Positions 2,738-59,255 of a stretch of 64,000 nt of DNA are shown one piece after another. Every line of letters begins with the position of its first letter. Positions within the stretch are counted from its first letter, which is position 1. The position numbers and the translations under genes were made by a program. The stretch comes from Aurantiochytrium sp. KH105. Taxonomy: Eukaryota > Sar > Bigyra > Thraustochytrida > Thraustochytriidae. The notes below the pieces were generated by a model that was not told where the DNA came from, made no database searches, and worked only from the letters and a program-made list of their open reading frames with translations. Location: the NCBI GenBank assembly GCA_003116975.1, contig BGKB01000144.1, positions 1 to 64,000 on the forward strand. Reading direction: 5' to 3'.

Positions 2738-3161
2738 ATACTGGAGTTAAACCGTTTATACTCACCATCAGATATTTTACAAATCTTTTCTTCGATGCAA
2801 GATGTTACGTCTCAAATGCTGTGCTCGCCATGATTCTTACGCGACAGAGACAAACGCGTGCGCGCTCTCTTGATGACTAAAGACTATGGCAACCATTTGT
2901 ACATCTGTTTTGTTGTCATATGGAAAAAATTGCTCACCAAGAGTCTTACGCGTCAGAGACAAACGCGTGCGCGCTCTCTTGATGACTATAGACTATGGCA
3001 ACCATTTGTACATCTGTCTTGTAGTCCTATGGAAAATCATCGTCTTTCGAAGCAGGCTTCTGGCTTCGTTGTTCTGATTGGAGCATGACCCTTTCACACA
3101 AGACGAGACCCTGCATTTTTTCCTTTTCTTTTTTCCTTGGTCACTGGGCTGCGGCAAGTAT
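2738..3161. other. intergenic, convergent 3' ends
   Basis: This gap lies between the PLD stop and the YJU2 stop, so it should hold both 3' UTRs. It is AT-richer than its flanks and contains the 109-bp tandem repeat listed separately. No coding signal was seen. Confidence 0.6.
2832..3045. repeat. two-copy direct tandem repeat, 109-bp unit
   Basis: The block starting GATTCTTACGCG at 2832 recurs at 2941 as GAGTCTTACGCG. About 100 bases then match with few changes, including CAAACGCGTGCGCGCTCTCT and ACTATGGCAACCATTTGTAC. It is a local tandem duplication in the region downstream of the PLD gene; no ORF explains it. Confidence 0.9.
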
Positions 3162-9896: not shown

Positions 9897-12434
9897 TTAA
9901 GCCTCTCCTAGGTTTGCACTCGAAGAAGCAGCTGCTGTTTGCCATCGCAAACTGCGATTGTGAGATTTGCAAAACTTTGTGCTTCCCGCCGCCGAGTTTG
10001 GACACGCTCTTGCCTCGCAGCGTCTCCCGCCTCCATGATAGACACAAAAATCGGTCGCCCCTTGAGCCGAGCTCGTGCACGCATCAGCTTGGCACCGTCG
10101 TCCTCCTCCATGAAGAATGCAAAATTGTGTGCTCCCTGCGGCGGCTTTTCTACACGTGGGTTTTCGGCAACGCCTACCCCCTCCGTGCGCGACGCAAAAT
10201 CTGGTCTTGCTTCGAGCCGAGCTCGAGCATCCTGGAGCTTGGCAGCGGTCGCCGCCTCCGTGGGCAATGCATAACATCATTTTTCCCTGGGCCGAACTCG
10301 AGCATCCTGGTTCTTTGCAGCGCCGACCGCCCCCATGTGATTTGCATTTCCCCCCAAAACTAGCTTGCTTGGGGCAACCTTCCTCCTCGCAACGGCGTTG
10401 CCCACCATGCTTGGCGCAGCGATTCTTGGTCCCAGCTTTGCGTTTGCACTCTGGAACGCAGCATACTTGTAAGAGCACCAAGGGTTGCTCCTTGTCTCGA
10501 GTCTCTCGTCTGCCCCGTTTCGCACGTTGCTCAGGCCGGTATTCTCCTTCCTCATCGCTGCTGTCAAGTGCTTCGCTGGTTGCTCGTTGCCTATTAGGTT
10601 TTGCGCGCCGTGTCGGTTGAAAGAGCTCGTCTTCGTCGCTACTGTCCAGCATTTCGCTCGCGGCACTTTGTCTATCAAATTCGGCGGGTGGCTCGGGCTG
10701 AAAGGTCTCGTCATCTCCGCTGCTGTCCAAGGGTTCACTCCCCGAATCGCTGCCTGCTGACGCGGCTATCATCTTGCTCGTGCTTTGACGAGGACGCAGA
10801 ACGCGAGTACTAGCGCGTCGGTCGACGATGTCATCCGAGTGGAGATCCTCTGCAACTGGGCGCCTCTTGGAGGCGCGTGTAGGCCGCGATGATTGGGTTG
10901 TGATAGTCTTACGCCTTTTTCTGTTCGGGCTTGGTTTGCGCCCTTGATCTATGGATTTTCCAACGATTGTGGACGAGGTCGAGGACGAGGACGAGGTCGA
11001 GGAAGTTGACAAAACGCCTGCAGGGGTGGAGTGACGGGAACGTACATGGGTGTTACGAATGTGCTTTGGCGCGAACTTTCCTTTCACTCTCGGTCTCTCA
11101 TCATCTTCGGAGTCACAATCATCTCGTAGAGTCCTTGTTTTCTGTGTCTTGGCTTTAATGTTGACGTGTTTGTTTCGATTTTCCCCCGTCCTCTTGCTGA
11201 CTGGATTATCTTCTCGTTTGACGGCCTCAGGCTTCACAAGAACTTGTGCTCCGTCAACATTGCCTATGACCTTGACGTCTACCTTGGTCTCTTTTGTCTC
11301 GGATTTAATGTTGACCTGAACGACTTGTTGACTCCCTGCACATTTTTCAGCGAAGGACTTTGTCAGTCTCTTGGTGTCGTCTTTTTCTGCATCGTCGCCT
11401 TCGACCCTTGCATTGGTCCCGGTGTCATCCGTGTCGTTGTTTTTGGCGTCCAGATTGGTCTCTGAGTCATTTGTTTCGGTCTTTACATGTACTTTTCTTT
11501 CGTTGGTCTCGGACTTCACAGAAAGTTGTGCTTCTTCATCAACTTTGGCGTCTGTATCGTCTGCGAAGCCTTCGGGCAAGTCTGACGCAGCCTTACTGGT
11601 AGCTGTACTATCCTCGTTGACTTGAGTCCTTTGCTCCACTTCCGCGTCAAAGACTCCTGGGTCATTTGCTTCGGTCTTGACAGCATTCTTTGCTTCGCTG
11701 TCTTCGGTGTTCATCGATATCTCGGTCGCGTTGTCGTCATTCATCGTTTTAGTTTCGATCTTGTTGTCCTCGAGTTTCACCCTCGCTTGAGTCATTTGCT
11801 TGTCCTTGGCATTTTTTCTGGCTGGGGAGCTATCAGTTTTGTCATTGTTCTGAGCGTTTTTTACGTCTTTGGCATCCGCGTGAGTTACCGTCTCGTTCAT
11901 TTCGGTTTTCGTCTTGTCCTCCTTGTCAGTATCGTTGGGCCCTGATTTGGCTGCAGGGGCCTCAGCCATGTTTGCTTCCGCCTTCACGTTGATGTTTATT
12001 TTGTGTTTCTCATTCGTCTCTCCGGAGGCCTCGTGCCTTTCATTTGTCTCGGTGTTGATGGCTCCCTTTTCGATCTTCTCACCTTGGGTTTCAAGATGCG
12101 TGTTTTCTTCGCCACATTCTTTTGTGTCTTCGCGCTCGATGCTGTCGTTTTCAACGTTGTCGTTGTGTTGGCCAAGGTCCCCTCTCGATTCTTTGGGTGA
12201 CGTCGGGTTCGATGGTGTCTCATCGTTGGTTTCTGGGGATGATGGCGGTGACAAGGATGAGGGAGGTGAGTCTCCAAGACCGGGAGTCGCCACGTCCCCA
12301 CTAGCGCTCTGCGCGCGCTCCGAGACATTCTTCTGAAGAAAGCTCCCAAAGAAGGACGCTGCTCCGGCATTTTCAACTCCATCTTTTGCTTGCGCATGCT
12401 TGGCCGCGCGACGCGCACCGGGCGCAGGCGGCAT
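9897..12434 (-). CDS. large protein with seven C-terminal WRKY19-like Cys/His repeats
   Basis: Product is 845 residues from the ATG at 12434 (MPPAPGARRAAKHAQ); the frame remains open further upstream but without a better start. Residues ~60-520 are charged and low complexity with degenerate repeats of the form VK(S/T)ETN, rich in Asn, Thr, Glu, Lys. A Lys/Arg-rich SPNRKRRKT stretch could be a nuclear localisation signal. Three tandem ~25-residue acidic repeats (LDSSDEDE...) follow. The C-terminus holds seven tandem units of pattern C-x4-C-x9/10-C-x2-H linked by HGGGRRC, as in plant WRKY19-like and stramenopile proteins; probably zinc-binding, possibly DNA- or protein-binding. A sister gene is at 44783. 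Function unproven. Confidence 0.85.
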   Translation of the reverse strand: MPPAPGARRAAKHAQAKDGVENAGAASFFGSFLQKNVSERAQSASGDVATPGLGDSPPSSLSPPSSPETNDETPSNPTSPKESRGDLGQHNDNVENDSIEREDTKECGEENTHLETQGEKIEKGAINTETNERHEASGETNEKHKININVKAEANMAEAPAAKSGPNDTDKEDKTKTEMNETVTHADAKDVKNAQNNDKTDSSPARKNAKDKQMTQARVKLEDNKIETKTMNDDNATEISMNTEDSEAKNAVKTEANDPGVFDAEVEQRTQVNEDSTATSKAASDLPEGFADDTDAKVDEEAQLSVKSETNERKVHVKTETNDSETNLDAKNNDTDDTGTNARVEGDDAEKDDTKRLTKSFAEKCAGSQQVVQVNIKSETKETKVDVKVIGNVDGAQVLVKPEAVKREDNPVSKRTGENRNKHVNIKAKTQKTRTLRDDCDSEDDERPRVKGKFAPKHIRNTHVRSRHSTPAGVLSTSSTSSSSSTSSTIVGKSIDQGRKPSPNRKRRKTITTQSSRPTRASKRRPVAEDLHSDDIVDRRASTRVLRPRQSTSKMIAASAGSDSGSEPLDSSGDDETFQPEPPAEFDRQSAASEMLDSSDEDELFQPTRRAKPNRQRATSEALDSSDEEGEYRPEQRAKRGRRETRDKEQPLVLLQVCCVPECKRKAGTKNRCAKHGGQRRCEEEGCPKQASFGGKCKSHGGGRRCKEPGCSSSAQGKMMLCIAHGGGDRCQAPGCSSSARSKTRFCVAHGGGRRCRKPTCRKAAAGSTQFCILHGGGRRCQADACTSSAQGATDFCVYHGGGRRCEARACPNSAAGSTKFCKSHNRSLRWQTAAASSSANLGEA
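9940..10475 (-). repeat. seven tandem Cys/His (HGGGRRC) coding repeats
   Basis: Within the gene at 9897-12434. Each unit of about 72-75 bp encodes C-x4-C-x9/10-C-x2-H-GGGRR. The last unit diverges after HNRS. The repeats are similar at the DNA level too, which suggests expansion by tandem duplication. Confidence 0.85.
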
Positions 12435-13197
12435 CGTCCAGAAGGGGCGTGATGAGTGCCCACTATCTGGCAGCCTCGTTTGCGCTCCGCACCAGCCGGT
12501 GTGGCGGTGCAAGAGCAGAGAGAATAATGTTTCTGTGTGCATGTGCATGAATTGGGAAAAAACAAAACAAAAACAAAAGAGTCAAAAAGAGCAACGAAAA
12601 TGTGGTGGCAGGTGACCCGTAGATCTTGCTGCCAAGTTCCGCGAGCGGTAGGTTGAGATATCTATCGAATCGAAATTCCTTGTTGCAAGTCAAAGCTTTA
12701 CAAAAGTCATGTTTATTTTGCGGCAGAAAAACGACGCCTGCCCGCATTCGATTATACATGGCATGTGCGCGTGTGGACATGGCAGCAAGCAAACAAGCAA
12801 GCAAGCCAGAAAGCAAAAACAAAAGTTAGTATGGAGGCCGATTTTAGAATCAAGCACAAAGATGTGAACAAAGAAGAAGTATAGCGAGATGACGCGGACT
12901 ATTTCAATATGCAGCTCCCTTCGTTCATCCCTCTTTGTTTCATAGGCACGAGTATTCTCTTGGTACATGTGTGTTGTGGCCAGGTCGTCAATGGCTCGTC
13001 GTTCGTCTCTGATGCTCGCTGTCCTGGAAGCCTTTGAACGCCAGTTCTTTTGGACCCTCGTCGCCCATTCTTCCTCCATCCTTGCCTTATAGTAGTCACA
13101 AGAGGAGAGAGAGTCGCCAACTTTTTTGACCGAGACCTACCAGCGGCGCGACCCGACCGGTCCCGACCCAGCGGAAATCAATCCCTGATCGCTCAGT
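12435..13197. promoter_or_regulatory. shared divergent 5' region (zinc-repeat gene / DnaJ gene)
   Basis: 763 bp between divergent start codons. AT-richer than the genes. It contains an A-rich stretch at 12556-12600 and CAAGCAAG motifs at 12786-12804. No coding frame was supported. Confidence 0.5.
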
Positions 13198-16326: not shown

Positions 16327-18276
16327 ATGGCGTCCTTCGTCCCGCGCGTAGGCGAGGTCGTGTATGTGCAGCAGCAGGAGGAGAAGGAGCCCGCCGTGCG
16401 GGGTGTTGTCCGGTTCTTTGGCGCGACCTCGTTCAAGGCAGGCAACTGGGTCGGCGTCGAGCTGGAAAGGGCCGACGGTAAGAACGACGGCTCCGTCAAT
16501 GGCGTCAAGTACTTTAAGTGCAAGCTCGGTCATGGGTTGTTTGTGCGTCCTTGCATGCTGCTCACCGAGACCGAGGCCCTACAAAAGCACACGGAGAAAC
16601 TATCCATGAGTGATATCGCCTCGGGCGCCGAGGACGAGGAACACAAGTCCGGCGATGGCAGCTCCTCCTCCTCCAACACCACCGCCAACAAGACCACGAT
16701 CGCTGGCTCCACGTCGTCAGCGTCCTCCAGAGGGGGACAGCAGAGCGTGGAGGTTTGGTTCGAAGTTGAGGCGCGCGCCTTCATCTTCAACAAGAGCAAC
16801 AATCAATGGATTGAACTCGGCGCTGGCATGGCCAAGTTCGCCTGGGACAAGGCCGCGCGCAAGATCGCTCTCGGACTTACCGACGAGGATCACTCGCGAA
16901 AGTGCATTAGCCATCTTGTCGACCCGCACACGAAGATCGACATGCCCAACATTGTGTCGCAGCAGAGCTGGGTCTTTCGCGCAAGTCGGCAGTTGGACCC
17001 TCACACGAAGGATGTGCTCTGTCTCCAGTTCTCCACCGTCACCATCGCCTCCGACTTTGTCGAGACACTCGAAGAAAAGCGCGCCAATTTTGCGGCCGTC
17101 ATTGGAAAGGTGGCCTCCGCGCGGAAGAAGCAGCGCGCCGACAAGAACGGCGACGACGCAGACGCTACCCGCGTGATGCGCAGGAGACTCACAGTTTCGG
17201 GCAGCAACCCGAATCTTGACGGCCATCAGCCCGGAGCTCACAAGGACAAGAATTCTCCTTCGCCCTCGACGACCAGGACATTGCGCGCAGGCGAAATCGG
17301 TACGTGGAATCTCTCTTCCGAGGACGACGACGAAGCCAGCGCGGCTGCGGGAGCAACGTCCAAGAATGGTGTCGAAGTTGTCGCCTTCTCGGGCGTTTCG
17401 CGCAAGGGACTGGCGCCTTACAACCCCGACAAGCAGAACCAGGACTCGGTCGTGATGCAGCAGCTTCCTGTAAATGGCTATTGCAATGGGGAACTCCTTC
17501 TCTGCGTGTTTGACGGCCACGGTGAGAACGGCCACCATGTGTCCCGGCGCTTTGCGGCAAGACTGTCCACCGTGCTTTCCTCGGCGCCCAAGTTTGCGCA
17601 GGACGAATTTACTGGCAGTGTTCTAGCAGACGCCCTCATCACCATTGAGAACGAGCTTATTCAGGACCGCACAATCGACACGACGCTTTCCGGCACGACC
17701 GCAGTCGTGACGATTTTGCGCGGCAGCACGCTTTTCGTGGCTAACATCGGCGACTCGCGCATTGCCAAGGGCGTCTACAAGAAGGACAAGAATGGAGTTT
17801 ATCCTCAGCCTGGTCGTGGCCGCATCTATGCCGAAAATCTTTCCGAGGACCACAAGCCTGATCTCGAGCGCGAGCGTAACCGTATTGTCAAGGCCGGCGG
17901 TCGCGTGTTTGCCATGAAATATGACGACGGCATTGACGGTCCGGCTCGTGTTTGGCTCTCCTATGCTGATATGCCCGGTCTCGCCATGTCTCGCTCACTA
18001 TGCGACACCATTGGCAAGGAGGCTGGTGTGGTGTCTCACGCTGAGCTTTTTGCGCACGAGCTGCAACCTGGTCGCGACAAGTTCATTGTTCTTGCCACCG
18101 ACGGTCTCTGGGAGTTTATGAGTTCGCAGGAAGTCTGCGATATCATTGCGCGGCACGTGGTGGACGCTGACCCGCGCACAGCCATCTCGGAGCTTGTGCG
18201 CGAGTCAAACAAGCGCTGGCAAAACGAAGAGCCTGTCATTGACGACACCACCATTGTTGTCGCCTTCTTCAAGTAG
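16327..18276 (+). CDS. CAP-Gly / PH-like / PP2C phosphatase fusion protein
   Basis: Product is 649 residues. Residues ~25-78 are a CAP-Gly domain ([31 protein letters not shown]), a fold that binds microtubule plus-end or EEY/F tails. Residues ~140-250 ([27 protein letters not shown]) resemble a RanBD1/EVH1 PH-fold. Residues ~355-649 are a metal-dependent Ser/Thr phosphatase of the PP2C family: [36 protein letters not shown] and DDTTIVV carry the metal-binding Asp residues. All signature residues are present, so it should be active. Ser-rich and acidic linkers separate the domains. Start is the ATG at 16327, at the beginning of the CAP-Gly homology; the open frame just upstream offers only a TTG. 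I know of no described protein with this order. Confidence 0.9.
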
Positions 18277-35278: not shown

Positions 35279-38200
35279 TCAAAAGAGGTTCACCCTTTTC
35301 TTGTTGAGAATTCGCTGCCATTTGGGCAGCGTCTCAAAGGTTGCTCGTGGCATGCCAAAGATGAGCGCAAAGTCCTCGTCGCTAAGATAGGTTTCGAGAC
35401 GGGTTTGATCGACGTCCAAGCTGAAACGTCGCGAGACAAGGTCCTCATAAGAAAACTTAGCCGGGAGCGAGCCCTCCTTGTCAACGCCGCGTTCGCCACT
35501 CTTGTTGGTGGCAGACAAGTCTCCCTCTTCGGCAGATGCAACAGAAGATCTTTTCGATCGCTGAAGCCTTCGCGAGAGCCAAGAAGATCGCGAGACGCTG
35601 CCCTCCGCCAAGGGCTTTTTAGGAGGAGATGAACCCGAGCTTCCCATGGACAAACTGCTCGCGGCGCGCTGCAGGGCACGGACGCTCGCTGGTGATCCAG
35701 AGGATCGCCAAGAGAGACGCTTGCTTGACGCCTTGGTCTCCTCCATCTCGTCCGCTTCGTTCTCCTTGAGATCGACATCCTTATCCGACTTCGATGACGT
35801 ATGCTCTGTTTCATCGCTCTCAAAGTCATCGTGCGAAGAGTCCCTGGGCTCATCGACTTCTTCGTCGTCCTCGACTTTCTCCTGTTCGTCCTCATCTTGC
35901 TCGTGAGACGCAGTCGAGAGGATGTCGCTGAGTTCCTCAGGAGTGCGCGCATCGGTGTCCTCGTGCACGTGCTGATCCCGGTGAAGCTCGTTTCCACTCT
36001 GGAGCGAAAAAGAGTCTCGGCCTTCAGAAAAGCCCCGAGCAGACTCTTCATCGCTCGCATCGTCTTCGTATCCTTCACTAATCGCGTCGACATCGAGGTC
36101 GTCGTGGTCGAGGTCCGCTGCAAAGAAATCGTCTTGACTGCCGCGGATCGATCGAATGCTGCTTGGCAGAAGATCCTGTGAAGCGCGTCGAGATTGCGTC
36201 GTATCGAGACTGGTAAAGCCTCGATGGCACACAACGGTTTCTGCCATGACCTCGGCCGCCGTATTGTAAAAGTTCCCGCGAAGAATGCCTGCCGGAAGTC
36301 CATTCAAGAGCACTGGGACTGCGAACCAGGACTCGGCATTTTCGACGACAGAGCGAAGAGGAATTTGAGCTTGGCCAAGAAGTTCTTGCTTGAAGTTGCT
36401 TGAACGATAGAGCGTGACAACGATTTGCTGATCAATGAGGACGTTGGGGTCACGAACGAAGGGCACCAGGCCAGCAAACATGGTGTCGGCCCAATTGAAG
36501 CGCACAAAGTCGCGCTCCGGGAATCCCAAGACGGGCACAGACGTTGGCTCCGATTCCAGAATTGCTGAGTGAAAGCGCATGAAAACACGCGTGTAGTTGG
36601 AGTTCACCCCGATATCCGACTGACTCACGTAGCGCGCGAATTCGGAGGAACGCGTCCCACAGTGCTCGGCACCCTCTTGCTCGAGCTTGCCCGGCCCACC
36701 TGCAAAGCCGTATCCACGAAAGCTCGTCCTTGCGGTGTCTGTCTGGCCCCGACGCAAAGGACGGTAGTAGCTATTTTGCCTCGAGCGAACGGGATGGCGG
36801 CGGCCTGCGGGCTGCGGAAGAAACGGTGGCGATGACGCATCAGAGTGGCGCAGGCTATCCAAGCCTTGACCATTGTGTTTTGATGTGTCCGAGGCACACT
36901 CCGCGTCAACCTCGTCGCCATCATCTTCCTCTGCATCGCTTAGATCTTCCGGGTTGGAGAGCGCTGCTGATCGCGTCTTTTCGAGAAATGCAGGGTCATT
37001 GAGTACCTGAAGCGCGGCAGCCTGTTGGGCGTCAACGAGTTTGCAGCAAAATTCGACGGAACGCAATTGGAAGTGCGGCGCTGCCTCGTCCTGGTGCAAA
37101 GCGTCGGCGGTGGCAAACGAGATCGCGTCCGTGCCAGTAAGAACCTCACTCGAGGCTAAAGAGTTACGCGCCGGCCACGCACTGGGATCGAAAGGGTCAC
37201 CAGAAGCAAGAGTATCGAGCTGGGCGGACTCTGTAAGGACAGAGAAGCGCGCCACTACTGGACGATGATCCGAAATCGTCGTCCTTTCCACGCAAGTGTA
37301 ATCGAAGAGCTCCACTTTTGCGGAAATGCCCGGTCGGGATCGCCAGAGCACGCGGTCCGTCCACGACGGATTCTGGTTCCGCTTGTTGTTGTACTCGCCG
37401 ATGCGGCCCACCTCAAGCCGATAGGTTGGCGGAAAAGCAAGCTCACCCTCGCGAAATCCAACAAAGACATTGTGCTCGGCGCGTTCCTGGGCAAGCTGGT
37501 CGTGCTCGCGGAGTTGAGCAAAGGATTCCTCATCAGCGGAATCAATGCGCGCAACGACCGAGGCGTACTCGTTTTCGGTGCCATGCTCGCCGAGATCAAG
37601 CCGATAGTTGAGATCGCCGGCCCAAAAGATATGGTCGTAGGCATGAAGGAGCTGAAGACCTGCAGCAGGGGCTTTCTTTCGCGTGAGAAGCGAATGGCAG
37701 ATTTCCTGATAGTCGCTCGCACGCTGACCCATTCGCTCCGCCCGCGCAGCAAGGTGAGCATTGACAAAGGCGAACGAGGTGCTTGCGGCGCTGACGCCAT
37801 CCCCGTAGCAAACTGCAATGCCTACGGCGCCTTTGTTACCCATGACTCCTCCAAGGCCGCACGCTCTAGTATCTGTGCGGATTCGTGAAAAGTAGCGCGC
37901 CAAAGAGGTGCGGATAAAGAGGAGGCCGTGAATGCCCCACATGCTGACGGTGGAAAGGGTGGTGAACTGGTCCTGGCCGAGAGTGTTGAGGAAGAGCTGC
38001 TGCCACTCTGCCAAATTCTTGGACTTGCACTCTTGCAGAGCGACAAAACAAACGTCACAATCGTCGGGAGGCAGCCAGGCGTCCAAGATCTGAGCTTGTA
38101 TGACTGGATTCTCTTGCGCGAGAGGAGCCTGGGTGTGTTCCATGTCCTCATCATCGGAGACGAGCGCCGGCGCAGGGTGCTTGGAGCAGTTAAAGGTAGT

Positions 38201-38848
38201 GCAGGTGATGTTGAGACGCGGGAGCGCCGCGGCTTGGTCCTGACTGGCACCGTCACCACTTGCTTCCTGGGCCTGGGCGGACAGCGCTCGCACGTGGCGA
38301 AGAAGTTGGCAAAAGCGCTCGCGCCTTGACGCGTTGTCAAAGACGACGTCCAAGGGTCTTGACTGCGGATCTGCGTAGAGCTTGAGCTTGCGTTTATCTG
38401 CCTCGGCGGGGAGGAGGAGCAAAAGAGGGGTAATTGGAATGGTTTTGCGCAAAGGGGTGCTCGCGGACCAGAGGCTCCCTTGCGACCCTGCTGACATGGG
38501 TTCTGTACTTTCGTCCCTGTTGCTTCTGCTCAGCGTCCTGTTGCTAATATCGACAACGAGAAATCTCTTTTTGCGCGCGCGGTAGCGATTGACAAGGTGG
38601 ACCTCAAAGCTCTCGAGGTGCGACGAGGGCTCGGTGTCAGTTTCGGCTCCATCATGTTTGTCACCCTCCTCATCATGGTCCTCCTCGTCGTGGTCCTCGT
38701 TGGGCTCTTCCTCCTCTTCTGCTACGAGTTCTTCGTCCTCGAAGGTCTCCCCGGCGTTGCGCGCGCTGCTGCCGTTTCGGTCTTCGCTGTCCGGGTCCTC
38801 CTCCAACTCGAGCTTGGACGCCGAGTCTCTTTTGCGCAGCGCTGCCAT
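35279..38848 (-). CDS. inositol polyphosphate 5-phosphatase with C2 domain and villin headpiece
   Basis: 1189 residues. After an acidic N-terminus, residues ~80-190 (FEVHLVNRYRARKKRFLVVDI...) may form a PH-like domain. Residues ~205-545 are the catalytic 5-phosphatase domain: FVALQECKS, GGVMGNKGAVGI, FVNAHLAARAER, WAGDLNYRLDL, FPPTYRLEVG, NPSWTDRVLWRS and SDHRPVVARF, with all catalytic residues present. Residues ~690-850 (FMRFHSAILESE...LGQAQIPLRSV) look like a C2 domain. A ~270-residue acidic Ser-rich linker leads to a complete villin headpiece at ~1126-1189: FSYEDLVSRRF, D.TRLETYLSDEDFALIFGM, FETLPKW, ending NLF. The headpiece is an F-actin binder, so the enzyme may remove 5-phosphates of PI(4,5)P2/PIP3 on actin. 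The ATG at 38848 starts the protein; the extension above uses TTG. Confidence 0.9.
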   Translation of the reverse strand: MAALRKRDSASKLELEEDPDSEDRNGSSARNAGETFEDEELVAEEEEEPNEDHDEEDHDEEGDKHDGAETDTEPSSHLESFEVHLVNRYRARKKRFLVVDISNRTLSRSNRDESTEPMSAGSQGSLWSASTPLRKTIPITPLLLLLPAEADKRKLKLYADPQSRPLDVVFDNASRRERFCQLLRHVRALSAQAQEASGDGASQDQAAALPRLNITCTTFNCSKHPAPALVSDDEDMEHTQAPLAQENPVIQAQILDAWLPPDDCDVCFVALQECKSKNLAEWQQLFLNTLGQDQFTTLSTVSMWGIHGLLFIRTSLARYFSRIRTDTRACGLGGVMGNKGAVGIAVCYGDGVSAASTSFAFVNAHLAARAERMGQRASDYQEICHSLLTRKKAPAAGLQLLHAYDHIFWAGDLNYRLDLGEHGTENEYASVVARIDSADEESFAQLREHDQLAQERAEHNVFVGFREGELAFPPTYRLEVGRIGEYNNKRNQNPSWTDRVLWRSRPGISAKVELFDYTCVERTTISDHRPVVARFSVLTESAQLDTLASGDPFDPSAWPARNSLASSEVLTGTDAISFATADALHQDEAAPHFQLRSVEFCCKLVDAQQAAALQVLNDPAFLEKTRSAALSNPEDLSDAEEDDGDEVDAECASDTSKHNGQGLDSLRHSDASSPPFLPQPAGRRHPVRSRQNSYYRPLRRGQTDTARTSFRGYGFAGGPGKLEQEGAEHCGTRSSEFARYVSQSDIGVNSNYTRVFMRFHSAILESEPTSVPVLGFPERDFVRFNWADTMFAGLVPFVRDPNVLIDQQIVVTLYRSSNFKQELLGQAQIPLRSVVENAESWFAVPVLLNGLPAGILRGNFYNTAAEVMAETVVCHRGFTSLDTTQSRRASQDLLPSSIRSIRGSQDDFFAADLDHDDLDVDAISEGYEDDASDEESARGFSEGRDSFSLQSGNELHRDQHVHEDTDARTPEELSDILSTASHEQDEDEQEKVEDDEEVDEPRDSSHDDFESDETEHTSSKSDKDVDLKENEADEMEETKASSKRLSWRSSGSPASVRALQRAASSLSMGSSGSSPPKKPLAEGSVSRSSWLSRRLQRSKRSSVASAEEGDLSATNKSGERGVDKEGSLPAKFSYEDLVSRRFSLDVDQTRLETYLSDEDFALIFGMPRATFETLPKWQRILNKKRVNLF

Positions 38849-44782: not shown

Positions 44783-45181
44783 ATGTACTCAAGGAATCCA
44801 CCATCGCCGCCGGGCGGTGGCCATGGTGCCATCAACGATGATCACCATCATGGGCGCTCGCCGGCGGCTGCCGAAATGTCCTCGAGTAGCTCCAGCAGCA
44901 GCACCACCAGCCGCCGTCGAACCAACACTGCCGCGCAGGCACCTGCTGCCGCCGCCGGCGCTGCTGCTGCTGCTGCCGCTTCTGGCCGAAGGGCCCCACC
45001 TGGCCGCGACCATGGCTTTATGCTTCGGGGACCTGCCCTGAATGAGGCCACAGGCGCGGCTGCTTCTTTGAGACAAAATTCGGAAAAACAAAGTCACGAT
45101 TCTTCCCATTCGAGGCGTCGTGCCGAAGGCGAACATCAGCAACAAACAGGACGAGCACGCCCCCCCAACAATGATGACCGC

Positions 45182-45213
<32 letters not shown>

Positions 45214-46804
45214 CGAACATGACCCCCCCTGTCCCGTAGAAGGCTGCTCAAATATTTGCATCGAAGGCTGCGACAGATGCCGTCTTCATGGCGGGCGACG
45301 ACGATGCGGTGCGCCTCACTGCAAGAAATTTGCGCAGGCCCCATCTCAATTTTGCAAATCCCACGGCGGAGGTTACCGCTGCAATTTTCCTGGATGTAGC
45401 AAGTCTGCAGCTGGTAGCATCCACCGCTGCGGCATGCACGTCCAAGATCTCACCGGAATCCATGCTGCACCTACAACCGTGTCCCGGCGATGCGCCGTTC
45501 CAGACTGCGTCATGCGTGCGGTCATAGTTGTGTACTTGTGCAAGGCTCATGGTGGAGGCCGCCGCTGCACATTTTCCGGCTGTTTCAAGTCCGCTTGCGC
45601 TCGATCCAAGCTTTGTGCGGCGCACGGTGGTGGTCGCCGCTGCTCGCACAAAGGTTGCACAAAAAGCGCTGTGGGATCAACACTGGCCTGCGTATCTCAT
45701 GGCGGCGGCCGACGCTGCGTTCACGCCGACTGCAATAAATCTGCTCGCAGCGGCTCTGACTTTTGTCAGGCGCATCGAACAAAATATGAGCAACGGCAAA
45801 CCCAACAAACGGGTGTCAAGGACAGCTCTGCGGACGGCATTCCGACGTCACCTGCTCAGGCTTATGCGCGTAGCACATACGCACATGGGGTCGGTACCCC
45901 GCAGCCAACTACAGATTGGTCCCAAGAAAACGTTTCCGGTGCATCATCGGCTCTCGGAAATGACTTGTCCTTGTATAATTCGAACACTACGTCGAGTAGT
46001 GTCTCTCATCAGGCTTCACAAGATAATGAGTTCAGCCGAGCTGAATCACAGGGCTCCTCCTCTGAAGAACGACGAGGTGAAGGTGGAGGCCCAGACAGGC
46101 AAGCCGCAGATGTTACATCAACATCTTTGTCGCCAACATTAAAGCGAAAGCGTCACTCCGAATCGGATGACGCTATTTCCTCTGCTGTGAGCGACGATAA
46201 TTCTACAAAGCGAGATCGTGATCGATACTCGAGAGGCATCCGCAAGCGTCGCCAAGATGCGGACAGCAAACTCCTACAGGATGCTATTATTTCCTCTATG
46301 CAGGTGGTTCCTTTCGCCGGTCCTGTGCATGGTAACACCTCCCACATGATTGCTCCCGTGCAAAGAGCAATTCGGCAGGGCTACATTGCACCCCCTGGCA
46401 CGGCCTCGCCATTTCCTCATCAAAGTATGGCTTTCACTCAAGGTTCTCACCAATTCGCTGCGAATGCTTTCCCCCCTCCAGGGATCTTTCCTTCGCAGTT
46501 TTCCTACGGCATGCCCATGCCTTTTCATCCCTACAACCAATCGTCGCCACCCTCGGCTTTTGTGGGCGGGCAACCTTTTGGTGGCATTATCCAACCTCTC
46601 CCGTATTTGCAACAGCAGCAACAACAACAACCGCAGGCCGCAGTGGATTCTTCATTCCAACCTCAGTCTCAGCTGCCAGGCTACGCTCCATTAGGCCAAC
46701 AACAGATTCGGGATCCAAACTTTCTTACGTCAGCGATGCCTTCGGCTGCAGTGGGGACTGCTCCGAACGTCGCAGGAAAGGGTGAAGACGACATAGACTC
46801 TTAG
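44783..46804 (+). CDS. second protein with seven WRKY19-like Cys/His repeats
   Basis: 673 residues from the ATG at 44783. The N-terminal ~145 residues are low complexity (Ser, Ala, His, then an Asp/Asn run). Seven Cys/His units follow at ~148-340, pattern C-x4-C-x9/10-C-x2-H with HGGGRRC linkers; unit 1 is shortened and an insertion (VQDLTGIHAAPTTVSRR) separates units 3 and 4. The C-terminal half is Ser-rich with a basic LKRKRHSESDD and KRDRDRYSRGIRKRRQD (nuclear signal-like), then a Pro/Gln-rich tail with a poly-Gln run, as in transcription co-activators. Same module as the gene at 9897-12434, here placed N-terminally. Probably nuclear; target unknown. Confidence 0.85.
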
Positions 46805-47340
46805 TCCGATTTAGACTTCCATCTTTAATGTCCCCTTCTTGCTATTGCATCATGGTCTCTGTCTTCCCCTCTATTCTTTCTCCCTTTTTATGAACAGTAA
46901 AACGTGAAAGAATATGTTTCTGCTCTCTCCTGAATCAATGGTCTTATTTCGTACGCACCTTCACCGTTAATTACTTTCAGGCTTTTGGATGAAGTGCTCG
47001 TTCGTTCAAATTGAGTATTTTCGCATTATCGTGAACAATCAGAGGAGTCGAACACACGAAGCAAGATTAGGCCTAGGTATTACCATGCAAAGAAACAAAA
47101 GAAGAAGAGCCTGTCCCGCGTTCCATTTTTGAGGCCACGTACCCTCCTCCATTCAACGCCCAACGACGCTGCAGAATTTCACCATAACTTGCACCGTGGG
47201 AAAAAAAAAAAAAAAAAAAAAGGACAGCTTGAGATTGAGGCAGCTTCTAAAGCTTGATTGATCGAGCGGTCGATCGATCGTTCAATCACAACCTGCTCCC
47301 GCTCTCGCACGTGAGCGCGCGATCGCGAGGGCGAGACGCG
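46805..47340. other. intergenic between two plus-strand genes
   Basis: 536 bp: AT-rich 3' UTR of the zinc-repeat gene, an A homopolymer of ~21 bases (47201-47221), then GATTGATCGAGCGGTCGATC motifs (47255-47280) just upstream of the TAF12 gene. No frame of interest. Confidence 0.6.
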
Positions 47341-48366
47341 ATGCAGCACCAACAAGGCGGTGGCGGATATCCGCCGCGGGGTATGCCTCAGCAGCAGCAG
47401 CAAGCGCAGCAGCAAGCGCAGCAGCAAGCGCAGCAGCAAGCGCAGCAGCAAGCGCAGCAGCAGCAGGGATATCGCGGCCATCCAACTGCAGGCGCCGCGC
47501 CACCGCGCCCATATGGGCGGCCGCCGCAGCAAGCCCCGCACGCCCAAGCATATGCACAGGCCAGACCACCGTACGCCGCGAGCGCTGGCCAAGGCCGGCC
47601 GCCTATGATGCAAGGTGGCAACTCTGCGTCGACCCAGGGACCAACTGCAGCCCACCTCGCCGCCTCAGGGTCCGTGGGCGCCCCAAGGGGTCCTTCCGGC
47701 GTGTCACCCATTCGGTCCTCATACCCGAACGCCGCATCGATGCAGCAGCAGCAGCAGCAGCAGCAGAAGCCGTCGCAGCAGCTGCAGCAGCGCCAAAGGC
47801 CCGCTCCGCGTCCCGGTGCAATGGCCCAGCACTCTCCAACTGGATCAGGCACTACGGCTAGACCCATGCATCCAGGCGCCAAGGATATGGCTGCAACAAG
47901 CCCAGCTTACACAGGCCGTATGCCACAACTCACCCCAGGTGCCTTTCCCAAATTGCGTGCGCGAGGCTTTGGTGATCAGGAAGTGCTTGCGTCTGTGCGT
48001 AAGCTCAACGAGCTGGTGCAGAGCATCGACCCGAATGCAGATCTGGAGCCAGAAGTCCAAGAGGTCCTTTTGGATCTTTCCGTAGCCTTTGTGCAGGAAG
48101 CTGCTGAACAGGGCATCAAGCTTGCGCGCCATCGTGGCTCCTCGGAGCTCCAGCTTGAGGACCTTCGAATGTTTGTCGAAGGCCGACTCGGCCTTCACGT
48201 CCCTGGCTTCGGCTCCACTCTTACGGGCGGGGTGCCTGCCTCGCAATTTGACAATCAGCGCAGAAATGGCCCCGACTATGTTCCAGACGCTCATGCTGCT
48301 CGCCTCGAGGTGAAACGCAAAGCCCATGTACTACTTCAAGACAACCTGTTTGCGGACAATAAGTGA
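47341..48366 (+). CDS. TAF12: TAF12-like subunit of TFIID
   Basis: General transcription factor subunit (TFIID, possibly also SAGA) that pairs with TAF4 through a histone fold. Product is 341 residues. The N-terminal two thirds are Gln/Pro/Ala-rich, including a poly-Gln stretch with a 15-bp coding repeat (QQQQA, 47390-47465) and another Gln run near residue 135. The histone fold spans ~215-290: LNELVQSIDPNADLEPEVQEVLLDLSVAFVQEAAEQGIKLARHRGSSELQLEDLRMFVE, then LHVPGFG, all conserved in TAF12. The ATG at 47341 is the first in the frame. Confidence 0.92.
   Translation: MQHQQGGGGYPPRGMPQQQQQAQQQAQQQAQQQAQQQAQQQQGYRGHPTAGAAPPRPYGRPPQQAPHAQAYAQARPPYAASAGQGRPPMMQGGNSASTQGPTAAHLAASGSVGAPRGPSGVSPIRSSYPNAASMQQQQQQQQKPSQQLQQRQRPAPRPGAMAQHSPTGSGTTARPMHPGAKDMAATSPAYTGRMPQLTPGAFPKLRARGFGDQEVLASVRKLNELVQSIDPNADLEPEVQEVLLDLSVAFVQEAAEQGIKLARHRGSSELQLEDLRMFVEGRLGLHVPGFGSTLTGGVPASQFDNQRRNGPDYVPDAHAARLEVKRKAHVLLQDNLFADNK
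47390..47465 (+). repeat. 15-bp coding repeat for Gln-Gln-Gln-Ala (polyQ)
   Basis: Five near-identical CAGCAGCAAGCG-type units inside the TAF12 coding region, a likely site of length variation. Confidence 0.85.
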
Positions 48367-52522: not shown

Positions 52523-55500
52523 ATGTGGTCACCGCAAGGGCAAAGCCGACCCGTCGGGACTTCGTATCGACACAAGGCACTGTCAAGCTTTGCAAGCGAA
52601 ACAGACCGCTGGGATTCTACAGTTCTCCCAACCTTGCGTTCAGGCAAACGAAAGGCGAATGCCCCAGGTTCGTATGGCGTGGGTAATACCACGGCCGCAA
52701 AATCCGATGCACCTACACCTGTCTCTCGCTTCAAGTATCTTCGCGAACGTACGATGGCAAGGTTCCGGGGCCGAGTGGACAGCAAATTCCATGAATCGGT
52801 GGTGCCCAACTCAGTTCTCCGTGGAAGCGGTGATCGCCACGGAGATGATGACGATGAGGAAGACGAAGAGCAAAAATTTTTTGTGCATGAAGATGTCCAT
52901 GTGCCTTTTCGACTCCAATTGCGTCACATTTTAACGTCTTCCAGTGTTGGCGTCGCAATTGACCTCATCAGCTGCGCGTTGTCGGTCATTGCATGCGTCT
53001 TTTACGTCTGGTCAACGTATGATGAGTCGCTCGAGACGCTTTTCCTATTCATCGAGGCAGGAATTTCTGCGTTCTTCCTCCTCGAGTACATGCTTCGATT
53101 CTATGTGACCAACCATCGGGTCCGTTTCTTCTTTTCATGGTTTTCCATCGTCGATATCTTGACCATCGTACCGGTGGTCTTCGATCTTTTGCTGCACGAA
53201 AGTATCACAGGAACGTCTCTTGCGCTTCGCATCATTCAAATTTTGCGCGTCTTACGAATCGCTCGATTACTCCGCATTCATCGTGTCTTTACATATCTGA
53301 AGACGGAACTGCAGCGCGAAACCGCGCGCTTTATTTTGAACATGATCTCCATCACGTTCATCACTGCTGCCTTCATTTTTGCGATCGAAAATAGCTTGCG
53401 CGAAGAGCTCTTCGTAGAGCCTCTACTCTTTCACGATGCCTACTATTTCACCATTGTCACGGTGTCCACAGTCGGTTTCGGCGACATCAAGGTGTACACG
53501 CAGCTTTCACGTGCGTTCATCGTTCTGGTGATCATTGGCTCTCTTGTCTACATTCCCATGTCAACGAATGCTTTGCTTCGTTTGCTTTCAGAGGATTCCA
53601 TGTACAGATTACGTCGATATCGCCCTCGGCGAGCCCGTCACGTTCTTGTGCTCGGCGAGATCCATGCCGACGGAGCGCTCAAATTCTTGCAAGAGTTCTT
53701 TCATCCGGATCATGGCACACAAGACGACGTTCATGTCGTCTTTCTCATGAGCAACCTGCCTTCTGCAGAGCTGAAAATGGTGCTTGAGTCTCAGCGCTAC
53801 GAAATGTCCGTCACATATCTGCAAGGGTCAGTGCACTCGATCGAAGATCTCGATCGCGCGCGCGCCTGGGATGTCGCTGCTGTGTTCGTGCTTGCGCGCA
53901 AGTTCACTATCGAAGAGGCAGAGGTGGATCGAAGTACGATGATGATCGCTTTGGCCATTAAGCAATATCATTATCGCGTTCTTGGGTCCCCAGTACAAAT
54001 CTGTCTTCAATTGATTCGTCCTGAGAGCCAAAAGCAGTATGCCCTCGCTTTCAAAAAAAATGGGAGAAAGAACGAAAGCTACGGAGAAATCAACTCGCAG
54101 CAGCGTCCGTCCAATGCATCAATCGCATCTTCAATTGGGGCGCTGACGCCGGTCGGCACTTGCCCTCCCAATAGATATTGGCAGCAAAGCGCAAGTGTGG
54201 AAGATTTCGTCCGATCAGAGATCAAGGTCGTGCCTTCACCGATGTCTTCAAATCAAAATGGACGTCGTGTCTCGGACAGCAAAAGGCGACACATTGGTAG
54301 CGCTGTGAATCAGAATCGTCGAGAGAGCGAAGGGGCTCAATCAGAGCCTCTGTCGGACGCCGCTGACATTCTTGCGTTGATGCAAAAACATCAAGCACTT
54401 CCGCGTCAGCAGTCATCGTTATCGGTCGCATCCAAAACGCCTCTTCAAGGGCCGCAAAAGACTAGTTTCGGCCCCCAGGACATTGTAATCTGTACGAATC
54501 AGTTGAAAATGGAGCTCATGGCGAAACATTGTTTGTGTCCAGGCATCACAACGTTCATCACAAATCTGGTCATCTCACTCGATGATGATGCGCAACGGGA
54601 CCGCGGCGTTGACTCTCTTGCGCCGTGGGAAAAGGAATATCGAGCTGGCTGCGACTTTGAACTCTACCGAACGAAACTGACGCAGGGATTCAGTGGGATC
54701 CACTTTGAAGACATCGCGCTCGCTCTGTACATGGAAACGGGCACGCTGGTGATTGGCGTCGAGGTGAGCGCTGCCATGCATATGACCGACGGTTCGACAC
54801 ATGTAAAATCACGGCTCCTTTTGAATCCGGTCGGCTTCGTCATTCCGGACACGACGGAATTCTCGGTCCACGCTATCGTGATTGCGCAAGATCGGGCAAG
54901 CGCAAACTTGTCGACATGGAGATCGAATCCGCAAGAGCCAGGCAAGGGTGGAGGCGGTCTCACGGCTTCTTTTTATGGGCTCACGGCACCTGCGCAGAAA
55001 ATGAGCAGCATGAAGTTTAACAATCAAAATTCAGGCAAGCCAGAGACAGAGGCGAGCAGGATTGAAGCGAAGGTGCGCATGTACAATCCAACAGAAGCTC
55101 GACCCGGCATCGAAATATCCCGGAAAATGGCCGAATTTGATTCTGCTTCGCTGCAGCATCAAGTCAGCAGTGGTTCTGGAGACAAGAGAGCGTATAGCGT
55201 AGCCTCTGAGCGCCTTCAACGGGCAAAGATTCATTCGCAGTTGTGCGAAGAGCACCCGAATGTGAAGAATCACGTAGTTTTTATTGGTTCGACGACAGAT
55301 TTAGCCGCCTTTGTGAGAATCTTGCGCCACAAGACCAAAGGCGCGACCAAGAACCTGCCCGTTGTTGTGCTCTCTACCACGATGCCGAGTGTCCAAACTT
55401 GGGCCGCGCTTCCAGGTGAAGGGGAACACGTGTACATTGTAGAGGGCTCACCGCTAGACATCTTTGACCTTAAGCGCGCCGGAGTTCATTATGCTTCTTG

Positions 55501-56692
55501 TGCCGTGGTGAGCACGACACAAGGGCAAATGAAACAAGCTGGACGTGCGCTGTCGGTCGACAGTCAACGCGATGACTCCGAGGCACTTGCTGTAGCAGAT
55601 GCGGACGCCATCTTTGCGCACCAGGGCATTTTGAGATTGAACCCTGATATCGAAATCATCACAGAGGTCGTCAACACAGAAAACATTGTCTTTTTGGAGA
55701 CCAAATCGCGGCTCTTGCACAAGGCTGAGCGACACCTGTCCTTTCATGTGGCCCCCAAAGAAACAGCAGATGGTGCGCACAAGCGTCCCTCGCAGGTGCG
55801 AGGGGTGGCACCGACGCTTCCCGATGCAGGCGACGAAGAATTTGACGGAACAGTAGACATTGGCAAAAACGATCGCCACACGCGGGGCCTTATCGCTTCG
55901 GGGACAATCTTTACAATCTCGCTTCTCGATGCGCTTCTCGCGCAAAGCTTTTACAATCCCAAAGTGTTGGCTGTCCTCGAGCAGCTTCTCGCTGGCGAAT
56001 CTCAGACCAACGCGGACGCGGCTATGTGGACAGAGGTTCTCGGCGAGGCTTCGTCAAGCCTCATGTACGTGGCGTCCGTCCCGGAGGAATTCGAAGAGGC
56101 TACCTACGGGGATGTCTTTCGTTATTTCTGTCTCGAAAAGGGGATGCTCTCTGTCGGCATATCCCGCGGTGTCACGCTGCGCCGTGCAGGTATCAGTACG
56201 CTCGGCAATCGCCATCGCTATGTGCTCACGAACCCACCTGCTGAGACAGTGCTTCAACGTCAAGACAAGATTTTTGTTTTGGCACTCATGGAACCTGAAG
56301 AGGAGACGCGAGGGGGCGGGATGCTCGACGTTCTCTCTGCGTTTCAGCAAAAACGTCCAGGTCTTTTTGCTGCTGGAGAAAACGCTGCGCCCGCAGCAAT
56401 TACGTCTCTTTTGCCGACAACGAAGCCAGGCACGGGTGATGACGATAAAAAGACGACGCTGCCTTCTTCCAAAGCATTGCACCCTGAATCTGAATTGCAT
56501 GAGACGTCGGCGCCAGCCACGTCTAAATCCGAAGCGCCCACTTTTAAGCTGGGCGGAAACTCGTTTCCCTCGTCGCAGAGAACGCGGCAGTCAAAACGTT
56601 CGAGCACCTTGGATTCGGGAGGCATGATCGATCTGGCTGAAGAGATCCGAGAAGACGAACTTTTGGAGATTGACAAAGATGAAGAAGACTAG
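52523..56692 (+). CDS. BK-type (Slo1-like) voltage- and ion-gated potassium channel
   Basis: 1389 residues. Six membrane segments span ~140-350: S1 (VAIDLISCALSVIACVFYVW), S2, S3 (FSIVDILTIVPVVFDL), S4 with Arg every third residue (LALRIIQILRVLRIARLLRIHRVF, ~233-256), pore loop with K+ selectivity filter TVGFGD (316-321), and S6. Two cytoplasmic RCK domains follow: RHVLVLGEIHADGALKFLQEFF starts RCK1 (~378), and NHVVFIGSTTDLAAFVRIL starts RCK2 (~920), as in calcium/pH/Na+-gated Slo channels. A ~150-residue Ser-rich insertion lies within RCK1. No clear calcium bowl (Asp run) was found, so the gating ion is open. The C-terminus is Ser/Lys-rich and acidic. The ATG is the first in frame. Intronless. 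Plasma membrane is likely. Confidence 0.9.
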   Translation: MWSPQGQSRPVGTSYRHKALSSFASETDRWDSTVLPTLRSGKRKANAPGSYGVGNTTAAKSDAPTPVSRFKYLRERTMARFRGRVDSKFHESVVPNSVLRGSGDRHGDDDDEEDEEQKFFVHEDVHVPFRLQLRHILTSSSVGVAIDLISCALSVIACVFYVWSTYDESLETLFLFIEAGISAFFLLEYMLRFYVTNHRVRFFFSWFSIVDILTIVPVVFDLLLHESITGTSLALRIIQILRVLRIARLLRIHRVFTYLKTELQRETARFILNMISITFITAAFIFAIENSLREELFVEPLLFHDAYYFTIVTVSTVGFGDIKVYTQLSRAFIVLVIIGSLVYIPMSTNALLRLLSEDSMYRLRRYRPRRARHVLVLGEIHADGALKFLQEFFHPDHGTQDDVHVVFLMSNLPSAELKMVLESQRYEMSVTYLQGSVHSIEDLDRARAWDVAAVFVLARKFTIEEAEVDRSTMMIALAIKQYHYRVLGSPVQICLQLIRPESQKQYALAFKKNGRKNESYGEINSQQRPSNASIASSIGALTPVGTCPPNRYWQQSASVEDFVRSEIKVVPSPMSSNQNGRRVSDSKRRHIGSAVNQNRRESEGAQSEPLSDAADILALMQKHQALPRQQSSLSVASKTPLQGPQKTSFGPQDIVICTNQLKMELMAKHCLCPGITTFITNLVISLDDDAQRDRGVDSLAPWEKEYRAGCDFELYRTKLTQGFSGIHFEDIALALYMETGTLVIGVEVSAAMHMTDGSTHVKSRLLLNPVGFVIPDTTEFSVHAIVIAQDRASANLSTWRSNPQEPGKGGGGLTASFYGLTAPAQKMSSMKFNNQNSGKPETEASRIEAKVRMYNPTEARPGIEISRKMAEFDSASLQHQVSSGSGDKRAYSVASERLQRAKIHSQLCEEHPNVKNHVVFIGSTTDLAAFVRILRHKTKGATKNLPVVVLSTTMPSVQTWAALPGEGEHVYIVEGSPLDIFDLKRAGVHYASCAVVSTTQGQMKQAGRALSVDSQRDDSEALAVADADAIFAHQGILRLNPDIEIITEVVNTENIVFLETKSRLLHKAERHLSFHVAPKETADGAHKRPSQVRGVAPTLPDAGDEEFDGTVDIGKNDRHTRGLIASGTIFTISLLDALLAQSFYNPKVLAVLEQLLAGESQTNADAAMWTEVLGEASSSLMYVASVPEEFEEATYGDVFRYFCLEKGMLSVGISRGVTLRRAGISTLGNRHRYVLTNPPAETVLQRQDKIFVLALMEPEEETRGGGMLDVLSAFQQKRPGLFAAGENAAPAAITSLLPTTKPGTGDDDKKTTLPSSKALHPESELHETSAPATSKSEAPTFKLGGNSFPSSQRTRQSKRSSTLDSGGMIDLAEEIREDELLEIDKDEED

Positions 56693-57302: not shown

Positions 57303-59255
57303 ATGGTGTCGCCGACCGCGTGCGTCACGCTGCGCATCACAGGTACGTGCCCGCGAAGGGCGCGCGGCCGCGCCGCGCTGCGCCGGGCTGCGCGCAGGAA
57401 TGGCGGGCAGGGCGGGGAGTGGAATGGGATGGTAATGGAATGGACCAGAGCACGTGCATGCCAAGCGGAGCGCGAGAGCAGGGCGCGTGCGCGCGCGCGA
57501 GGGAGAGGGGGAGGCGGGCGAGCGGCAGTGGCAACGGCAGCAGCAGGCAGCGGCACGGCGAGGCGCGGCGAGGCGGAGGCCAATTGGGGGAGAAGAGAGA
57601 GCGCGGCAGTGCCTCCGCCGCCGGAGGGACGGCGAGGCCATCGTCATCTCTGTGCTTAGGGCCGCGAGTCAGTCGCACAGAAAAGGAAAGGGGAACTAAC
57701 TTATATGGTACACACGTGCGTGGTGTGCACAAACTCGCTGTCGAACTGGATTTGCTGGTGCTGGCCGGCTGACTCACCATGCGACCCGAATCTCGCAGCC
57801 AAGAGCGCGCAGAACCTGAAGAATTTGCAGACGCTGCTACCGCAAGACCCGTACGTACGCGTGGAGACCCTTCCGTGGAACGATGAGGCCGAAACCAAGG
57901 CCGCGCACGGCACCGACCCGGTGTGGAAGCCGAAACACCGCCCAGTGATGGAGCTCCCTTACTACGGTCGTCCCGTCCCGCCCGATCAAGCGTTGCTTCT
58001 GGTGGAGGTGCTTGACTGGGAGGCAACCCGCAAGAACCGCATCATCGGCGGCAACACCCTCGATCTCGCCCAGATCTTGCGGAAGACGCCACTCGGCGAG
58101 ACGCGGGAGCTCGTCGTGCCGCTCAAAGACCCAGATGGCAAGAGCGCCGGAACCGTCTTTCTGGAGTTCGAGGTCGTCATGCGCGGCACGTTCGAAGTGA
58201 CCGTGCTTTCGGGTCGCCAGCTGCGCAACATCCAGTCGAGCTTTGAAGACCTGATCAAAGAGCAGGACCCTTATGCGCGTGTGTCCTTTCTTCCCGCTCC
58301 GGATAATGGAACCAAACAGGTAGCCTCGACCAAGGCTGCGCGTGGCGTGAATCCTGTCTGGGACAGAAAGCGCCACAAGAGCAAGCTTACGTTTGACTTT
58401 GACGGCGAGGACAAGCCCCGTCTTCTCGTTGAGGTTCTCGACGAGGAAGTCTTGCGCAAAGATCGTCTCATTGGAACAGGCGCGCTGGATCTGATCAAGC
58501 GCGTGCTCTCGGAAGGTGCGGGTGCTCGCGAAGTTCACAAGACTGTGACTGTGGAACTTGTGGACGAGGAATTCGTGCCCGCAGGTAGTGTTGAGCTCGA
58601 TATTCACTTTATCAACGAGGCCTACGATGAATCGAAGCCCGTCATCACCGGTCTTTCGTCGCGCGATCTTAATGTGGACATTCACAAGATGTCCGGATCC
58701 GATCTTCTTCGTGAACTGGGCCGTCTTTTCATTCAGGTGGAAGGCGAGCTTGAGAGCGCGGCACCTGGCTTTCTCCACGAGGTTACTGACCGCGTTCCGA
58801 TTTCGGCTCTCTTCCTGGCCATGTGGGGTCTCTTGGGCGCTCTGGGAGTGGTTATCCTTCTCACGCGCGGCGCCAAGCTCTTGAGTCTGTGTGTAGGCGT
58901 CTTGTTCCCGTGCTACTGGTCTTTCAAGGCAATCGAGACCGAGGGCAAAGATGACGACACGCAGTGGCTCATGTACTGGATGATCTTTGGCACGAGCATG
59001 GTGCTGGAGGAGACTCTTTTCAAGGTGCCCGCGATGCTCCAGCCGGGCCTTTTTTTTGCGTCCAAGATGATCTTTCTTGTGTGGCTCTCGCATCCGAAAT
59101 TCCAAGGCGCTACAGTGGCCTACAGGCGACTCGTGGCGCCTATCTTGCGCAGGTATGAGGACCGCATTGACGAGCGCCTCAGAGCTGCTCGCAAAGCCGT
59201 AAAGGACCTTGATGATCGTGTTCGTCTCGAGCCTGAGTCGGAGGACGAGAGCTAA
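57303..59255 (+). CDS. two-C2-domain protein with REEP/TB2/HVA22 membrane domain (two exons)
   Basis: Joined CDS 57303-57342 and 57799-59255, 498 residues. Exon 1 encodes MVSPTACVTLRIT; splicing adds AKSAQNLKNLQTLLPQDPYVRVE, completing the first strand of C2 domain 1. That is strong evidence, because the downstream frame alone lacks this strand and a proper start. C2-1 covers ~5-155 and C2-2 ~160-300 (GTFEVTVLSGRQLRNI..DPYARVSF..NPVWDRK). Calcium-ligand Asp residues are only partly kept. A helix pair (~355-395) leads into the REEP domain (LCVGVLFPCYWSFKAIETEGKDDDTQWLMYWMIFGT..LEETLF), which inserts as hairpins and bends ER membrane. The protein probably tethers or shapes ER next to acidic lipids. 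The tail is charged. Confidence 0.88.
57343..57798 (+). other. intron (456 bp) of the C2-REEP gene
   Basis: Donor GTACGT follows AATCACAG-type context (ATCACAG|GTACGT); the acceptor is CTCGCAG|CCAAG. Removal keeps frame and restores the C2 first strand. The intron is GC-rich in its first two thirds and has in-frame stops. It is the only well-supported intron in the window. Confidence 0.82.

Follow-up and report, generated by a model that had tools for sequence, protein, structure and literature searches.

Among the genes of the 64-kb window, by which we mean the whole stretch of DNA analysed here, is one whose predicted 1189-residue product carries a 5-phosphatase domain, a putative SHIP-type C2 region, and, at its C-terminus, a villin-type headpiece (Table 1). 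This domain content and order, claimed in the initial annotation, are borne out by Pfam and PDB matches; in a profile search of the product for IPPc, C2, and VHP, the 5-phosphatase and VHP lie above the Pfam cut-off and the C2 below it. The protein matches four Pfam families at E up to 1, namely Exo_endo_phos2, VHP, C2_SHIP1-2_2nd, and Exo_endo_phos, and on this sequence evidence the domain fusion is real and well supported. The enzyme is a predicted inositol polyphosphate 5-phosphatase, with a SHIP-like core but without SH2 or NPxY.

Table 1. Features of the fusion gene and its predicted product, with positions in the window
Feature	Residues	Positions	Strand	Basis
Whole gene		35279..38848	(-)	ORF: 1189 codons + TGA stop
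Acidic N-terminus	1-79	38612..38848	(-)	Charge counts
Possible PH-like domain	80-195	38264..38611	(-)	Weak AF2 single-sequence model
Predicted 5-phosphatase catalytic domain	212-533	37250..38215	(-)	Pfam 249-533, start extended
Putative SHIP-type C2 domain	753-858	36275..36592	(-)	PF24147, weak match
Acidic linker	900-1037	35738..36151	(-)	Charge counts
Basic serine-rich segment	1038-1115	35504..35737	(-)	KRLS 1043, KRSS 1099
Predicted full villin-type headpiece	1126-1189	35282..35473	(-)	Pfam VHP, PDB villin match, Foldseek
Predicted headpiece core, ends protein	1154-1189	35282-35389	(-)	Pfam VHP

The catalytic domain is matched by Exo_endo_phos2 with an E of 4.1e-56 (191 bits, cut-off 27), and the related family Exo_endo_phos is found at E 0.014 in the search with the whole protein. 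It contains the motifs TFN (218), LQE (271), GNKG (337), HL (365), GDLNYR (411), W.DR (496), and SDH (526), which are catalytic signatures of 5-phosphatases and all of which except HL we take to define the family; the start of the domain was moved by hand upstream of the Pfam boundary at residue 249 to include TFN. A catalytic domain with the signature motifs, as membership of the family calls for, is thus present. In the PDB, the top sequence matches of the enzyme are SHIP1 (6dlg, 137 bits) and SHIP2 (130 bits), followed, among others, by the type II 5-phosphatase (110 bits), OCRL (103 bits), and synaptojanin (97 bits), with the 72-kDa 5-phosphatase (94 bits) and INPP5K (75 bits) lower still.

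The C2 assignment is weaker than those of the 5-phosphatase and the headpiece, as judged by the profile scores. C2_SHIP1-2_2nd (PF24147) is matched at E 0.0012 on the whole protein and at E 3e-5 on a 142-aa fragment, where the 24.6 bits fall under the cut-off of 27.5. When the region is compared with the PDB at E up to 5, all five matches are SHIP1 or SHIP2 chains (E 0.0012 to 0.055). No SH2 domain is matched by Pfam at E up to 1 in the 1189-aa protein, and the NPxY motif is absent from all 1189 residues, as is any PPPP run from the protein. Given that both the SH2 match and NPxY are absent, the protein resembles the SHIP core but is not a SHIP by definition.

The headpiece core is matched across the entire VHP profile, positions 1-36 of 36, as the family requires (E 7.1e-13, 48.7 bits, cut-off 27), and the longer segment from residue 1126 matches PDB villin 9jvt at E 0.0046. 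A profile built from three PDB headpieces gives the real protein 48.9 bits, compared with 12.3 for the best of 5000 shuffles of the last 72 residues. The motifs singled out in the initial annotation, YLSDEDF, FGM, LPKW, and the terminal NLF, are all found. Over the last 46 residues, 22 are identical to villin 1qqv, 23 to 2rjv, and 22 to 1ujs, a chain of an abLIM homologue. For the three-helix headpiece fold, a model made from the single sequence without an alignment has a mean pLDDT of 54.8; all 27 of its Foldseek matches are headpieces, with a best E of 0.0038 and none at or below 0.001, in a search that also uses sequence, and superposition on the top full headpieces gives a TM of about 0.5 and an rmsd of 4.7 to 7.7. 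The identification of the tail as a villin-type headpiece is therefore supported, chiefly by its sequence matches.

Residues 80-195 are modelled by AF2 from the single sequence as strands followed by a long helix, at a mean pLDDT of 52.0; searched to an E of 10, neither Pfam nor the PDB sequences match them. The best Foldseek E for this model, 0.34, is uninformative, and the few PH folds (E 1.6 to 3.8) among the best 50 of 323 matches at E up to 10 are no better than noise; a PH domain here, suggested by eye and by the weak model, is possible but unproven. For the acidic linker, Pfam gives nothing better than E 0.81, and the segment of biased composition before the headpiece is probably disordered.

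A long linker of such composition might also mean that the apparent fusion is two genes, or the result of an assembly or frame error. The open reading frame, however, runs from an ATG to its TGA with no internal stops and no need for an intron, so that there is no break in frame. Codon statistics, trained on nine other genes of the window and applied to 12 blocks (each 100 codons long except the last, which has 90), place the annotated frame at the top in all 12, although in codons 1001-1100 it is barely preferred (0.20, against 0.19 for a rival frame with five stops). When linker codons 871-1130 (260 codons) are shuffled by mononucleotide, just one of 5000 shuffles leaves the frame open, and the headpiece finishes exactly where the frame does; headpieces commonly stand at the end of proteins. 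Given the codon statistics and the shuffle result for the linker, the two-gene reading is very improbable and was rejected on these coding statistics.

The neighbouring genes are eukaryotic in kind, including a BK channel, WRKY19 zinc fingers, Saf4/Yju2, and a TFIID subunit, and several long genes of the window each occupy a single open frame, with a GC content of 0.52-0.67 across the window in 2-kb steps; a thraustochytrid source might fit such features. The BK-type calcium-activated potassium channel (52523-56692, +) spans 1389 aa in one open frame, whereas WRKY19-type zinc finger repeats occur in five stretches in one protein (9897-12548, -) and three in another (44783-46804, +). A 649-aa frame at 16327-18276 (+) combines CAP-Gly (20-75), RanBP1 (140-252), and PP2C phosphatase (391-627) domains, a trio of which we know no other example, and another at 57660-59255 (+) holds two C2 stretches and a TB2/DP1/HVA22 domain. 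Between the frames ending at 2737 and beginning at 3162, a 109-bp unit is present in two tandem copies (2822-3036, 92% matches). A single tblastn match for a possible second headpiece at 47325-47387 (E 0.059) was taken as chance. Rfam has no match within the window and so gives no RNA that could serve as a taxonomic marker, and a scan for bacterial-type signals returned 1 promoter (0.8 expected) and 4 terminators (4.5 expected), from models that are not applicable to a eukaryote.

The initial annotation had also stated that headpieces bind F-actin, a step that needs qualification here. In a recent structure paper (PMC12674126), the actin contacts common to the villin and dematin headpieces are the Trp, the next Lys, and the C-terminal Phe. 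Two of these three are retained, Trp1177 and Phe1189, with the spacing of 12 seen in villin, whereas the Lys after the Trp is replaced by Gln1178; chain 1ujs, unlike the protein here, retains this Lys. Moreover, villin Lys38 corresponds to Leu1151 (the same in 1ujs) and villin Lys73 to Val1186, so that three of the five villin lysines compared are replaced, while Glu1152 and Lys1183 preserve villin Glu39 and Lys70, and Lys71 is likewise kept. According to PMC6056535, the abLIM1 headpiece alone has no detectable F-actin binding but binds F-actin when joined to its unfolded neighbour region; it should be noted that our own sequence comparison was with 1ujs, from an abLIM homologue. In Trypanosoma brucei, residues 1-300 of RAP1, which contain a headpiece, are described as binding PI(3,4,5)P3 (PMC10686619). 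Given the Gln in place of Lys, the abLIM1 headpiece that by itself showed no F-actin binding, and the trypanosome segment that binds PI(3,4,5)P3, F-actin binding by the headpiece is plausible but not automatic.

Relatives were sought in viral contigs, using as queries the full-length protein, an alignment of two 5-phosphatase rows, and one of three headpiece rows; the 1, 29, and 147 pattern matches, respectively, yielded no confirmed relatives; likewise, none was confirmed among 50 pattern matches of the 5-phosphatase alignment in prokaryote genome contigs. This null result in viral and prokaryote collections says little about eukaryotes. The remark that no 5-phosphatase with such an ending has been described agrees with the open-licence papers found to name villin headpiece and 5-phosphatase together, on T. 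brucei and in a plant review, in the passages and listings of which no such fusion is described. Nor does a fusion appear among the titles and abstract beginnings listed for headpiece literature with stramenopile terms and for protist 5-phosphatase architectures, and neither ‘headpiece’ nor ‘villin’ occurs in the main text of the Entamoeba and oomycete reviews. Thus, the fusion is new within the open-licence literature searched, although it may already be annotated in domain databases such as InterPro.

As for function, the reading we find most likely, at about an even chance, is that of a phosphoinositide 5-phosphatase of SHIP-like type whose own tail targets it to cortical actin. The catalytic domain would remove the 5-phosphate from PI(3,4,5)P3 and/or PI(4,5)P2 and the C2 would anchor the enzyme at the membrane, while a long charged linker would carry the headpiece, which would keep a weak grip on cortical actin. 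Because this grip would place the enzyme at filaments, lipid signals would be ended where filaments have formed, which amounts to a negative feedback. The Pfam and PDB matches, the 5-phosphatase motifs, and the retention of Trp1177, Phe1189, Glu1152, and Lys1183 in the headpiece speak for this reading. In Dictyostelium, GFP on the proline-rich segment plus headpiece of talin B concentrates at the leading edge, as reported in PMC6449030, so a headpiece in the tail is able to direct a protein in a protist. In addition, animal SHIP2 has a link to actin in trans: the title of a reference in PMC7730566 has it binding filamin and regulating submembranous actin, and the abstract of PMC3237483 places SHIP2 and filamin in one complex. 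Against this reading stand the replacement of three of the five villin lysines (Gln1178, Leu1151, Val1186), the abLIM1 headpiece that alone is without detectable F-actin binding, the poor headpiece model, and the failure to find a relative with a conserved fusion in the viral and prokaryote collections. A stronger version, that headpiece binding to new cortical actin would not only position the SHIP-like enzyme but also switch it, giving a one-protein negative feedback from actin assembly to PI(3,4,5)P3/PI(4,5)P2, is unlikely.

The main rival is that the headpiece serves as a phosphoinositide- or protein-binding module, recruiting a partner or substrate for the phosphatase, and is no actin anchor; we regard this as rather unlikely. 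In T. brucei, a nuclear 5-phosphatase controls the binding of PI(3,4,5)P3 by RAP1 1-300, and the authors of PMC10686619 cite the binding of phosphoinositides by villin headpieces; that binding, however, is mapped there to the 300-residue segment and not to the headpiece alone. The tail here has basic residues (R1179, K1183, K1184, R1185) and is preceded by a basic segment, and a module of this kind would fit with abLIM1, whose headpiece does not by itself bind F-actin, but two actin-contact residues, the Trp and the C-terminal Phe, are retained. It is also conceivable, though quite improbable, that the headpiece was gained by fusion and still folds but has little function left, with no strong binding to any partner. 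The F-actin affinity of headpieces differs widely, to go by the title of Vardar 2002 in a reference list, and the loss of villin lysines points the same way. Nevertheless, the headpiece is well kept, with 22 of 46 positions identical to villin 1qqv, which suggests that selection may have maintained it.

If the headpiece does couple the enzyme to filaments, as the targeting reading has it, lipid turnover would be wired directly to actin without a partner protein, and an enzyme carrying its own actin-type domain would be a compact system for testing actin-lipid feedback. The ectoplasmic net of labyrinthulomycetes has an actin cytoskeleton, as stated in PMC12221091; if the DNA comes from a labyrinthulomycete, the enzyme could act in this net, where one would naturally expect it. 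Alongside the T. brucei circuit, the fusion raises the question of whether a role of headpieces in phosphoinositide signalling is commoner than has been supposed, for which two cases are too few.

Compared with known systems, the protein is closest to SHIP1 and SHIP2, its best PDB sequence matches, with which it shares a 5-phosphatase followed by what is putatively a SHIP-type C2, but it has no SH2 match, NPxY, or PPPP run and ends in an acidic linker and headpiece. Whereas SHIP2 is linked to actin in trans through filamin, in the sources cited above, any such link here would be in cis. With villin, dematin, abLIM, supervillin, and Dictyostelium talin B, it has in common a complete 36-residue C-terminal headpiece whose last residue is Phe, and the segment of biased composition before it is somewhat like the unfolded region described for dematin and abLIM. 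Unlike in villin-type proteins, the headpiece is joined to an enzyme and one of the three actin contacts is changed; Pfam, searched to an E of 1, places no gelsolin, LIM, or I/LWEQ domain in the protein. The PIP5Pase and RAP1 of T. brucei likewise bring a 5-phosphatase and a headpiece into one phosphoinositide circuit, but there, as described in PMC10686619, they are two separate nuclear proteins with the headpiece on the DNA-binding partner, whereas here both would reside in one polypeptide.
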